This document shows, piece after piece, positions 24,259 to 27,522 of a stretch of DNA of 38,011 nucleotides. The stretch is from an uncultured Ruminococcus sp. Its GTDB lineage: Bacteria > Bacillota > Clostridia > Lachnospirales > Lachnospiraceae. The stretch is from positions 1 to 38,011 of the forward strand of contig CAJFGR010000018.1 of assembly GCA_904377845.1 (NCBI GenBank). The letters run 5' to 3'. Positions within the stretch are counted from its first letter, which is position 1. Every line of letters begins with the position of its first letter. Under the pieces are notes generated by a model that had not been told where the DNA came from, ran no database searches, and saw nothing but the letters and a program-made list of their open reading frames with translations. The position numbers and the translations under genes were made by a program.

Positions 24259-25548
24259 ATGGAATTATGCAGTATCACAGGGTTAAAAGGTAAAATCACT
24301 GTTCCGGGGGATAAATCCATTTCTCACCGGTGCGTTATGTTCGGATCCATTGCCAGCGGCATGACAGAGATCCACAATTTTCTCCAGGGAGCGGACTGTC
24401 TCGCTACAATCCGCTGTTTTCGCACCATGGGAATTGACATTGAGGAAAAGGGCGACACCATACTTGTCCACGGGAAAGGTCTGCACGGTCTCTCTGCACC
24501 GACCGATATACTCGATGTCGGGAACAGCGGTACAACAACACGTCTTCTGTCGGGAATTCTTGCCGGACAGCCGTTCGAATCAAAGCTTTCCGGAGACGAA
24601 TCACTGAACTCCCGCCCTATGAAAAGGATTATTGATCCGCTGACCCAGATGGGCGCCAATATCTCAAGTATCCTGCGAAACGGATGCGCACCGCTGTATA
24701 TTACGCCCGGCGAACTTCACGGAATCCACTATAACTCACCTGTGGCCTCCGCGCAGGTAAAATCATGCGTCCTGCTCGCAGGGCTGTATGCGGACGGTGA
24801 GACCTCTGTTACCGAGCCGTCCCTCTCCAGGAATCACACAGAACTGATGCTGAAAGAATTCGGAGCCGATATCCGTTCCTCACATGAACTGGGAAGCACA
24901 AGGGCAACCGCCTCCATCTCTCCCTGTGACGAACTTTTCGGCCAGAAGATCACCGTACCCGGCGACATTTCCTCCGCCGCATACTTTATTGCAGCAGGGC
25001 TGATTGTGCCGGATTCTGAGATTCTCATTGAAAATGCAGGCATTAATCCAACCCGTGCCGGCATCCTGAAAGTATGCGAAGATATGGGAGGCGATATTAC
25101 TCTTCTCAACGAGCGTGTCGAGGGAGGAGAGAAAATTGCGGATATCCTTGTCCGTACAAGCAGGCTCCACGGCATCACGATACAGGGCGATATTATTCCG
25201 ACGCTTATCGACGAAATCCCTGTTATCGCCGTCATGGCAGCCGTTGCGGAGGGCACTACTATTATCAAAGATGCAGCCGAATTGAAAGTAAAAGAAACAG
25301 ACCGCATTGAGACTGTCTGCGATAACCTGAAAGCAATGGGATGTAATGTCACACCGACCTCGGACGGCATGATCATCACCGGCGGGAAACTCAAAGGCGC
25401 GTCCATCCACACACTGCTCGACCACCGCATTGCAATGGCATTCAGCATTGCAGCGCTGGTGGCAGAAGGAAATACCAAAATACTGGACAGCAGGTGCGTG
25501 GATGTATCGTATCCCACATTCTATGATACCTTTGAGGAATTGCTGTAA
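24259..25548 (+). CDS. aroA: 5-enolpyruvylshikimate-3-phosphate synthase
   Basis: Joins shikimate 3-phosphate and phosphoenolpyruvate in the shikimate pathway. The 429-residue protein has PGDKSISHR (16-24), GNSGTTTRL (88-96), PGDISSAAYF and LKVKETDRI. The NSGTTTRLLSG form, rather than NAGTAMRPL, puts it with the class II enzymes of Gram-positive bacteria, which include glyphosate-tolerant members; tolerance here is untested. AAAGGA precedes the ATG. It is the second gene after tyrA. Its TAA stop is the first triplet of the long palindrome at 25546-25920. Confidence 0.96.
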   Translation: MELCSITGLKGKITVPGDKSISHRCVMFGSIASGMTEIHNFLQGADCLATIRCFRTMGIDIEEKGDTILVHGKGLHGLSAPTDILDVGNSGTTTRLLSGILAGQPFESKLSGDESLNSRPMKRIIDPLTQMGANISSILRNGCAPLYITPGELHGIHYNSPVASAQVKSCVLLAGLYADGETSVTEPSLSRNHTELMLKEFGADIRSSHELGSTRATASISPCDELFGQKITVPGDISSAAYFIAAGLIVPDSEILIENAGINPTRAGILKVCEDMGGDITLLNERVEGGEKIADILVRTSRLHGITIQGDIIPTLIDEIPVIAVMAAVAEGTTIIKDAAELKVKETDRIETVCDNLKAMGCNVTPTSDGMIITGGKLKGASIHTLLDHRIAMAFSIAALVAEGNTKILDSRCVDVSYPTFYDTFEELL

Positions 25549-25920
25549 ATTCCGCGATTGCCGGGGAGACACTTCCGATTGGAAGAGCACAGAGAATCAC
25601 TCGGATACAGCCGATATGAACCATTTTTCGGATCAGTCGGGATTGTGATGCGGACGGCGACTGTGAAGAAAGGTTAGATGAACTTTAACCCTGAGATATA
25701 GCGTTAATCAGCCAGACGGGCTTGTCTGAGCACTGCGAGTTGTCCGTCTGGCTGATTGTTTTTAGCTATATTTCAGGGTTATTAGTTTATCTTCCTTTTG
25801 TAACCGGAGCCGGAAGCATTACAATCCCGACTGATCTGAATACGTGAGTCAATCCACTGTATCCGATTGATTTTCAGACGCTTTACCGAGGAATTGACTC
25901 TCCGGCAAATACGGAATTTA
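25546..25920. repeat. about 375-bp imperfect palindrome filling a convergent intergenic gap
   Basis: The two halves are reverse complements of each other at a constant centre near 25733. Matching blocks are: TAAATTCCG (25546-25554 with 25912-25920), TCGGATACAG (25601-25610 with 25857-25866), GATCAGTCGGGATTGT (25631-25646 with 25821-25836), the 17-bp arm at 25686-25702 with 25765-25781, and AATCAGCCAGACGG (25706-25719 with 25744-25757). Between the blocks identity is lower. The palindrome begins with the TAA stop of aroA and ends with the TAA stop of the FGGY kinase on the other strand. RNA from either strand could fold into a very long hairpin. The inner part doubles as a terminator. Confidence 0.85.
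25686..25781. terminator. central hairpin of the palindrome, likely bidirectional terminator
   Basis: An inner 14-bp stem (25706-25719 with 25744-25757) followed by GTTTTTA on the plus strand, and an outer 17-bp arm with one G-U pair. It lies between the convergent aroA and kinase genes and probably ends both transcripts. On the minus strand the T-rich run is weaker. Confidence 0.75.
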
Positions 25921-27522
25921 GATTCCGGCATCCACTGCTGCTCTTTCGATCGCCAGTCCTTTTGTATACCTCTCCATAAACTTCTCATAGCCTTCCACAT
26001 CTTCCGGCACCGGATCCATTCCTGAGCCCTGTGCATCGTGGAATACTTTGTTATTGAGGTAGTCTGTCAGGCTCTCGCCGTCTTCTTTGCGCACAAGGTA
26101 ATCTGCAAGAAGCGCAATTCCCCATGCACCGCCTTCTCCGGCAGTCTCCATAACGTATACAGGCGTATCGATCGCTCCGGCAAGGATTCTCTGTCCCACG
26201 CCTTTTGTCTTGAACAGGCCGCCGTGTCCCATCATACGGTCAAGTTTTACATTTTCTTTCTTGAGCAGGATATCCATTCCTGTCTTCAGAGCGCCGAGAG
26301 ATGTGTAGAGATTCACTCTCATAAAGTTTGCCAGATTGAATCTGCTCTCAGGGGAGCGCACGAAGAGGGGACGTCCCTCGTCGAATCCTGTGATATGCTC
26401 GCCTGAGAAGTAATTGTATGCGAGCAGGCCGCCGCAGTCAGCATCGCCCTCAAGCGCTTTATTGTAAAGGGTTCCGAACAGTTTGTTCATATCCACGTCA
26501 ATACCGAAGCTCTCTGCAAATTCTTTGAACAGTCCCACCCATGCATTCAGGTCGGATGTACAGTTGTTGCAGTGAACCATAGCTACCAGATCTCCGGCAG
26601 GTGTTGTCACAAGGTCGATCTCCTCGTACGGTTTTGTCAGGTCTTTCTCAAGGACTGCCATAGCAAATACACTTGTTCCGGCAGATACATTTCCTGTTCT
26701 TACGGCAACGCTGTTTGTGGCTGTCATTCCGGTTCCTGCATCTCCCTCAGGCGGGCACATAGGGATGCCTGCTGCCAGATTTCCGGAAGGATCAAGAAGT
26801 TTTACGCCCTCTTCTGTCATACAGCCTGCATCTTCGCCCGCAAGAAGTACTTTCGGGAGAAGTTCGCGGATCTTCCACGGGAATCCTTTGTCTGCCACCA
26901 GCTCATCAAACTGATCCAGCATCCTGCTGTCATAGTCTTTCGCCTCAATATTGATCGGGAACATTCCGGCCGCATCGCCGCTTCCGATCACTCTCCGGCC
27001 GGTCAGCTGCCAGTGGATATATCCGGCAAGTGTGGTAAAGAAACGCACTTTTCCTACATGATCTTCGCCATTTAAGATCGCCTGATACAGATGAGCGATA
27101 CTCCAGCGCTGCGGAATATGATACTGGAAGAGCTCTGACAGCTTCTCTGACGCCTCTCCCGTGATCGTATTTCTCCATGTGCGGAACGGCACAAGAAGCT
27201 CATCGTTCTCATCAAATGCCAGATAACCGTGCATCATCGCACTGACTCCCGCTGCCGCCAGATTTGTGATGGTGACTCCATATTCCTCCTGCACATTTTT
27301 CACAAGGTCCTGATAGCTGCCCTGAAGCCCTTTCCACACTTCGTCGATGGCATACGTCCAGATATGGTTCACATACTGATTCTCCCAGTCATAGCTTCCG
27401 GAAGCGACAGGTGATTTGTCCACATCGATGAGCACTGCCTTAATCCTTGTCGATCCCAGCTCGATGCCGAGCACCGCCTGTCCGGCGCTTATCATCTCTC
27501 TGATCTCTTCTTTGCTTCGCAT
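25918..27522 (-). CDS. FGGY-family carbohydrate kinase, probable L-ribulokinase
   Basis: A sugar kinase of the FGGY family, 534 residues, with the N-terminal phosphate loop [15 protein letters not shown] (19-33) and the second nucleotide-binding block [18 protein letters not shown] in the C-terminal domain (about 430-450). By sequence alone it could be called a xylulokinase-like protein. The neighbouring araD, araA and araR make L-ribulose (L-arabinose pathway) the best substrate guess; many clostridia use such a kinase in place of classical AraB. AGGAGG lies before the ATG. It follows ddh by 80 bases with a hairpin between and no clear promoter of its own. Confidence 0.85.

Follow-up and report, generated by a model that had tools for sequence, protein, structure and literature searches.

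Long hairpin cassettes in convergent gene gaps of Mediterraneibacter-like Lachnospiraceae: a dispersed, structure-conserved repeat family with a candidate role at mRNA 3' ends

The palindrome between aroA and the kinase gene

How can a repeat come to lie flush with the stop codons of two convergent genes when the previous spacer has left no visible trace? This question is raised by a locus in an uncultured Ruminococcus sp. (contig CAJFGR010000018.1, positions 1 to 38,011; this whole stretch of 38,011 nucleotides is referred to as the window). The left neighbour (24259..25548, + strand) is aroA, encoding EPSP synthase (PF00275), and the right neighbour (25918..27522, - strand) encodes an FGGY-family carbohydrate kinase (PF00370 and PF02782). 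An initial annotation had reported that an imperfect palindrome of 375 bases, at 25546-25920, spans the gap from one stop to the other. The coordinates are right, and both ends of the gap are indeed stop codons, TAA at 25546-25548 for aroA (+) and TAA at 25918-25920 for the kinase (-). The blocks that were said to pair at a constant centre were recovered by the repeat search as five nested inverted pairs of 14-47 nt with almost one common centre and 77-100% complementarity. Protein-coding content was discarded as an explanation, there being no 100-aa open reading frame inside the gap; an antisense frame (24880-25590) starts inside the gap and runs back through aroA.

The palindrome, the fold and the copies of the family described below define the whole aroA-kinase gap, with both stops (25546..25920, +), as the single-hairpin form of a cassette, here called module A. 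Its outer left arm TAAATTCCGCGATTGCCGGGGAGACACTTCC (25546..25576) starts with the aroA stop codon and has similar left ends in other copies; it forms an inverted pair with the outer right arm (25890..25920), which ends in CGGAATTTA and whose final triplet is complementary to the kinase stop. The middle left arm (25627..25673), with conserved asymmetric internal loops, pairs (77%) with the middle right arm (25794..25840, the TGTAACCGGAGCCGGAAGC region), a pairing also seen in the consensus fold. The inner stem is made of AATCAGCCAGACGG (25706..25719) and CCGTCTGGCTGATT (25744..25757), whose sequence differs among copies with the pairing kept, and it encloses an apical loop (25720..25743) in which the copy alignment reveals a conserved TTGTCTGAGC...GCGAGTT motif. 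Right behind the inner stem a T run, TTTTTAGC (25759..25763), looks terminator-like by eye. All these features are given on the + strand. It would give no more than four or five U residues in the RNA, and a simple terminator scan called no terminator-like site in the window element.

As RNA, the 375 nt from stop to stop form one imperfect hairpin, which on both strands is far better than shuffled sequence. The + strand RNA of 25546-25920 folds at -208.8 kcal/mol (z -19.4) and the - strand RNA at -173.5 kcal/mol (z -17.9), with 0 of 100 shuffles as good in each case. These fold statistics, together with the homologous copies, rule out a chance palindrome. The covariance models of Rfam gave no match at the window locus; for 11 other loci there were only three matches, all to microRNA families and far below gathering scores.

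A dispersed family with a conserved hairpin

Dispersed copies were searched for with one arm in the own genome and with the full element in relatives, and both searches found them. In the own genome (G000, 2.76 Mb) the arm had 24 matches at E<=10, and the eight below 1e-4 comprise the window's own two arms and six other places. At E<=0.001 the full element matched 16 of the 61 genomes searched, every one of them among the 37 genomes of the same genus; none of the 24 genomes from other families matched, and some genomes of the genus carry several to many copies each. The named relatives are Mediterraneibacter and close Lachnospiraceae, among them many poultry-named metagenome assemblies. The palindrome is one copy of a dispersed repeat family in Mediterraneibacter-like Lachnospiraceae, and since many relatives are without it the element is dispensable. 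After overlap removal 80 matching stretches were obtained. Six of them, in L046, L048 and L051, repeat the loci of G004, G002 and G027 and were dropped; from the rest, the 38 copies that begin no later than query position 10 and reach at least position 330 were retained as near-full. The highest identity among copies is 88.7% within a genome and 94.7% between genomes, so no very recent duplication is seen.

The alignment of 37 of these copies (L146, with a shortened tip, was left out) contains paired substitutions, of the kind that the annotation had proposed to test for in the aroA-kinase gap of related species. Compensatory double changes are present in 52 of the 102 consensus pairs of the whole hairpin, and at the tip both sides have changed with the pair kept in 23 of 43 pairs. 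The consensus fold pairs columns 48-342, with a small local hairpin at the left end, and omits the outermost arms, which stay unpaired, so the covariation holds for the inner three quarters only. At the tip 97.4% of the cells are paired, against 35.8-41.4% when the partners are slid by 1-3 columns. The covariation score of the tip is 0.450 against 0.200 for shuffled alignments (0 of 500 as good), and the count of further pair types there, 52 against 54.5 shuffled (470 of 500), is no better than shuffled; the slid control weighs more, because shuffling loses the relatedness of the copies. Amid this variation the apical TTGTCTGAGC..GCGAGTT motif is nearly fixed, as are the internal loops GUUA/GCUUUUAGC and GACUGUG/UGUAACCGGAG, which argues against a palindrome merely copied from arm to arm. 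A structure-conserved repeat that recurs in one genus is well supported.

The copies also differ between strands. When pairing was scored alike for both, the + strand had 502 G-U against 218 A-C combinations; G-U outnumbered A-C in 36 of 38 copies, the two were equal in one, and A-C prevailed in one. Moreover the + strand gives the better fold in 37 of 38 copies, an advantage to which base composition adds, the shuffled means differing between strands too. Among the consensus pairs a minority G-U occurs in 51 columns and a minority A-C in 21, a count which leans to the + strand because the pairs were predicted on that strand. This bias suggests that selection acts on the element as a single strand in the + orientation, RNA being the simplest reading; the wobble bias would fit a single-stranded DNA hairpin as well.

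Compared with its flanking genes the element has diverged little. Between G000 and G002 it is 93.3% identical, with four-fold sites at 51% in aroA and 67% in the kinase, and between G000 and G027 it is 90.3% identical, with four-fold sites at 48% (aroA) and 61% (kinase); the contrast is smaller for the L133/L148 pair (element 94.7%, left-gene four-fold sites 83%). Among the 25 differences to G002, 9 are unpaired, 13 keep the pairing and 3 break it; the 36 differences to G027 divide into 13, 15 and 8. The high identity of the element would be explained by constraint or by independent or recent copying between species, and either fits. A recombination tract including the flanks was rejected as the source of the 93% identity, the flanking gene ends showing no rise to near-identity.

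The search was extended beyond the genus. A covariance model of the tip matched in 24 of 250 genomes of the family at E<=0.001 under strict filters (own genome included) and in 8 of 196 genomes of the order at E<=1e-4; apart from the own genome, these eight are a second member of the family and six genomes from other families with weak scores. Twenty-eight loci from other genera were inspected, 25 measured together and L178, L186 and L190 separately. Most of the 25 form a palindrome about 180-370 nt long, with 33 and 511 as extremes, and in six of the 25 one end is no more than 10 nt away from a stop codon that closes a long open frame; the three others have hairpin folds at the matched place. 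In L166 (G174) the palindrome extends past the stop codon and takes in the final codons of the gene, with GCGGATGAGAACTTGTCTG on one arm and its complement on the other. The tip motif in viral contigs (60 loci) was set aside; it lies mostly in other sequence contexts, with a median stem of 4 and a T run in 1 of 60.

Modules, stop codons and gap lengths

Module A is part of a larger unit. The full unit, taken from L040, measures 795 bp (ATTCGTGTTTGCCGG..CACGAAT) and consists in this order of hairpin B in reverse orientation, a small central hairpin and hairpin A. Reversed B is homologous to A, with a global score of 89, where 50 shuffles reached 49 at most, and a blastn E of 2e-8 over 172 nt; the full unit is a palindrome of palindromes, the comparison of B with A coming from this one unit. 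The 795-bp unit is bounded by the terminal inverted repeats ATTCGTG...CACGAAT and, being short, non-coding and multi-copy as well, it resembles a MITE in these respects. The starts of the end motifs are 774-780 bases apart in six listed loci, and elsewhere shorter or longer. Judged by eye, two things lie ahead of most of the 38 copies: an additional hairpin, GAAACCGGTCGAAAGGG..CCCTTTCGACCGGTTTTCTG, and a module of one of several other types. The window holds module A only, and the three module sequences compared match nowhere else in it.

Other modules were seen in passing. One of about 200 nt, GACGCAGAAAAAGAAGATACTGC..GCAGTATCTTCTTTTTCTGC, lies to the left of module A (L128, L133, L139, L145 and others), is near-identical by eye and is possibly another structured RNA. 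A third type, GCACACGCTTTCGCTCGG or GACGCGCTC, is hairpin-like and near stop codons in L144, L157, L061 and L231. In L342 (182-2602, G036:C85) a B-type hairpin and an A hairpin enclose two open reading frames of 308 and 277 aa, neither with a Pfam match; the stop codon of the second directly adjoins the A end, which gives the look of genes inserted into a cassette.

The exact fit from stop to stop, which had been singled out at the window locus, is real, yet it is frequent in the family and not peculiar to this place. With at most 2 mismatches allowed, six genomes gave 126 matches to the end motif ATTCGTGTTTGTCGG and 24 to the reversed control. The 59 loci examined comprise 56 sites that differ from the motif at one position or none and 3 that differ at two; they gave 58 distinct scored sites, since at one locus the neighbouring site was scored in place of its own. 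Of these, 28/58 lie at -1..+1 nt from the stop of an open frame of at least 80 codons, 39/58 at -1..+9 nt and 4/58 at 71-146 nt; the 15/58 without such a frame include contig ends, nested copies and coding false hits. For the control, other ATTCG sites in the same loci, the corresponding numbers are 2/122 within -1..+1 and 3/122 within -1..+9. In being a dispersed palindromic mosaic at gene 3' ends, the family resembles BIME/REP elements. A strict script, which overlooks ends with the sequence TAA/TTCG, as at glmM, placed the right end at a stop in 27/38 near-full copies and both ends in 15/38, and the stop-to-stop lengths of near-full copies are 372-809. Flush ends are common, not universal. 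At G020:C10:35550-35636 three end-motif matches stand 36 bases apart, which is probably a coding repeat and not cassette ends.

Gap lengths were compared at two further genes. A convergent partner of glmM was in reach at 18 of 30 loci; seven gaps of 289-735 nt have cassette-like sequence at both stops, nine without a cassette measure 53-146 nt, and two (224 and 609 nt) have other inverted-repeat ends. For dnaJ the partner is present at 3 of 30 loci, all with cassette ends (366-696 nt); the long gaps at both genes were inspected at their ends only. In cassette gaps the gene's own stop is unchanged in codon position, and at the ends of these gaps no leftover of the old short spacer was found by eye between stop and cassette. 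Likewise by eye, the TAA, TGA and TAG flanks show no constant duplicated word that would be a target-site duplication. A duplicated TA or overlapping-stop target, in which TA/ATTCG..CGAAT/TA keeps both stops, is not general, as TGA-flanked ends exist, and the empty glmM gaps of 53-146 nt are not overlapping stops. TAA stands beside cassettes in 42/51 against 53/90 (11 ambiguous rows excluded), which is suggestive only, because related species are not independent and the labels of L059, L074 and L240 are doubtful. The glmM gap of L238, 112 nt without long arms, holds a tip-like hairpin, GTTAAAAAACAGGGC..GGAACTTGTTTCA..GAGTTCC..GCCCTGTTAACGC, perhaps an ancestral terminator form. The fit to stop codons and the missing spacer are the surprising parts.

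The refuting case named in the annotation, relatives in which these two genes flank a gap without paired arms, did not arise as such. Among the 80 aroA loci compared the kinase is convergent and in reach at 15, of which six match the element by blastn and nine do not; these nine gaps, inspected over their full length, span about 22-1297 nt, and one of them (L061) has a different type of hairpin. In L048 and L051 aroA is followed first by an A copy in inverted orientation, next by a gene, and last by another A copy that directly adjoins the kinase stop, the latter copies being 93% and 89% identical to the window copy (blastn). The gene in L048 (5734-6117, -) is of the VanZ family (PF04892). A gene between hairpins downstream of aroA was also noticed in L046 and L051, and in L050 only a remnant of the VanZ-family gene was visible by eye. 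The comparison suggests that the window copy is probably a deletion form of this longer arrangement; a crossover between the similar left ends of its two A copies would produce the form in the window.

Interpretation and likeness to known systems

Of the origins put forward initially, an ancient inverted duplication of a local terminator region is unsupported, because the palindrome has homologues at unrelated loci; the 795-bp unit, one level up, does contain an inverted duplication. The two other readings agree with each other. The window palindrome is one of many dispersed fold-back copies. As for a structure kept by selection to provide double-stranded 3' ends, the compensatory changes bear out the conserved structure, and the 3'-end function is one that we infer. 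Taken together, we lean, with a little better than even confidence, towards a modular non-coding repeat, similar to BIMEs and MITEs, that is selected as a structured RNA at mRNA 3' ends. A 3'-end role of the cassette is a plausible candidate: the mRNAs of the neighbouring genes would carry the unit at their 3' ends, and the long hairpin may shield these ends. The tip, with its GTCTGAGC..GCGAGTT loop, the inner stem and then UUUUAGC, could end transcription in one direction. If it terminates one way only, the two inverted hairpins of the full unit would therefore serve both genes, one direction each. Recombination between units presumably lets copies spread and swap parts, in the manner of BIMEs and MITEs, and the cassettes may have replaced an older, shorter terminator spacer.

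The cassette might instead be a selfish MITE-like element, its hairpin kept for its own transposition and its location after stops explained by the harm done by insertions elsewhere. This would agree with the dispersed multi-copy family and the terminal motif ATTCGTGTTTGTCGG at both ends, with the 795-bp unit of L040 and the spacings of 774-780 in six loci, and with presence and absence at the same locus among relatives. We consider it rather unlikely, given that no constant target duplication was visible by eye, that cassette gaps show no old spacer at either end, and that a top within-genome identity of only 88.7% shows no fresh jump. In addition no phage or plasmid record matches the element, so carriage by either was rejected, and no match to a Y1 transposase (Y1_Tnp, E<=0.001) was found in G000 and G036, both copy-rich draft assemblies; such transposases are present in four copy-rich genomes and in seven without an element match. 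Among the families searched, Y1_Tnp and integron integrase, no mobilising enzyme was found. Cassettes directed to stop codons, in which a nested double hairpin replaces the whole spacer between the last sense codons of convergent genes and gives their mRNAs a shared, mutually complementary and structured 3' end, are a bold and distinctly doubtful idea; if true, the cassette would amount to a mobile regulatory 3'-UTR that is addressed to stop codons with single-nucleotide precision.

Template switching, by which one arm is copied from the other without selection for structure, would account for long and highly complementary arms and for the L166 palindrome that crosses the stop into the gene end. 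Arm-by-arm correction would nevertheless erase the asymmetries of the loops, and the asymmetric internal loops and the apical loop are kept in 37 copies while the flanking pairs covary; moreover the tip motif is recognisable in other genera, and we regard this process as quite improbable. The least credible proposal, to which we give very little weight, is a recombination site of single-stranded DNA like the integron attC, where the folded strand after a stop captures genes. Structure more conserved than sequence, ends flush with stops and extra genes between hairpins (the two frames of L342, the VanZ-family gene of L048) recall such sites, but the cassettes are set tail to tail and not in cassette arrays, and no integron integrase exceeded the curated cut-off in any of 14 genomes, weak matches occurring in 14/14 and also in 14/14 controls.

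If the reading as a selected 3'-end RNA is right, one recurring, selected RNA architecture without an Rfam family occupies whole convergent gaps in one group of gut bacteria. The cassettes then offer a natural test of the effects of very long 3' hairpins on termination, antisense overlap and mRNA stability.

The attC sites of integrons are imperfect palindromes after a stop codon whose structure outlives their sequence, and their hairpins are far shorter than those of the cassettes, which also differ in their tail-to-tail setting and in having no integrase over the cut-off in the 14 genomes. BIME/REP sequences of Enterobacteria and Pseudomonas, associated with RAYT transposases, are mosaics of palindromes that lie after stops or in convergent gaps and play a part at 3' ends and in termination. 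The cassettes share with them the dispersed palindromic mosaic in the same positions. However, REP units are about 20-40 nt, whereas a single hairpin of the cassettes measures about 375 nt and a full unit 795 bp. With these sizes, and with no Y1_Tnp match in the copy-rich drafts of G000 and G036, the cassettes do not look like a combination of 20-40-nt palindromes with a RAYT gene.

The portions of the literature searched hold no description of this hairpin family, which is not proof of its absence from print; a family of very long, structure-conserved hairpin cassettes in convergent gaps is apparently undescribed. In PMC2267715, 25 of 92 stem-loop repeat families exceed 200 bp, and no Lachnospiraceae appear in the portion of its species table covered here. 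MITEs, ERIC and YPAL, as treated there, are like the cassettes non-coding, multi-copy and hairpin-folding; the nested double hairpin and the abutment on stop codons set the cassettes apart from those families. The sections covered of PMC8040213 give 250 palindromic RNA candidates, 230 of them predicted to bear terminators, with examples of 80-132 bp. Like intrinsic terminators and these RNAs, the cassettes lie at convergent gene ends and have a stem-loop with, by eye, a short U run behind it; unlike them, as far as those sections go, they are much longer than a terminator stem, keep conserved apical and internal loops and have dispersed homologues.
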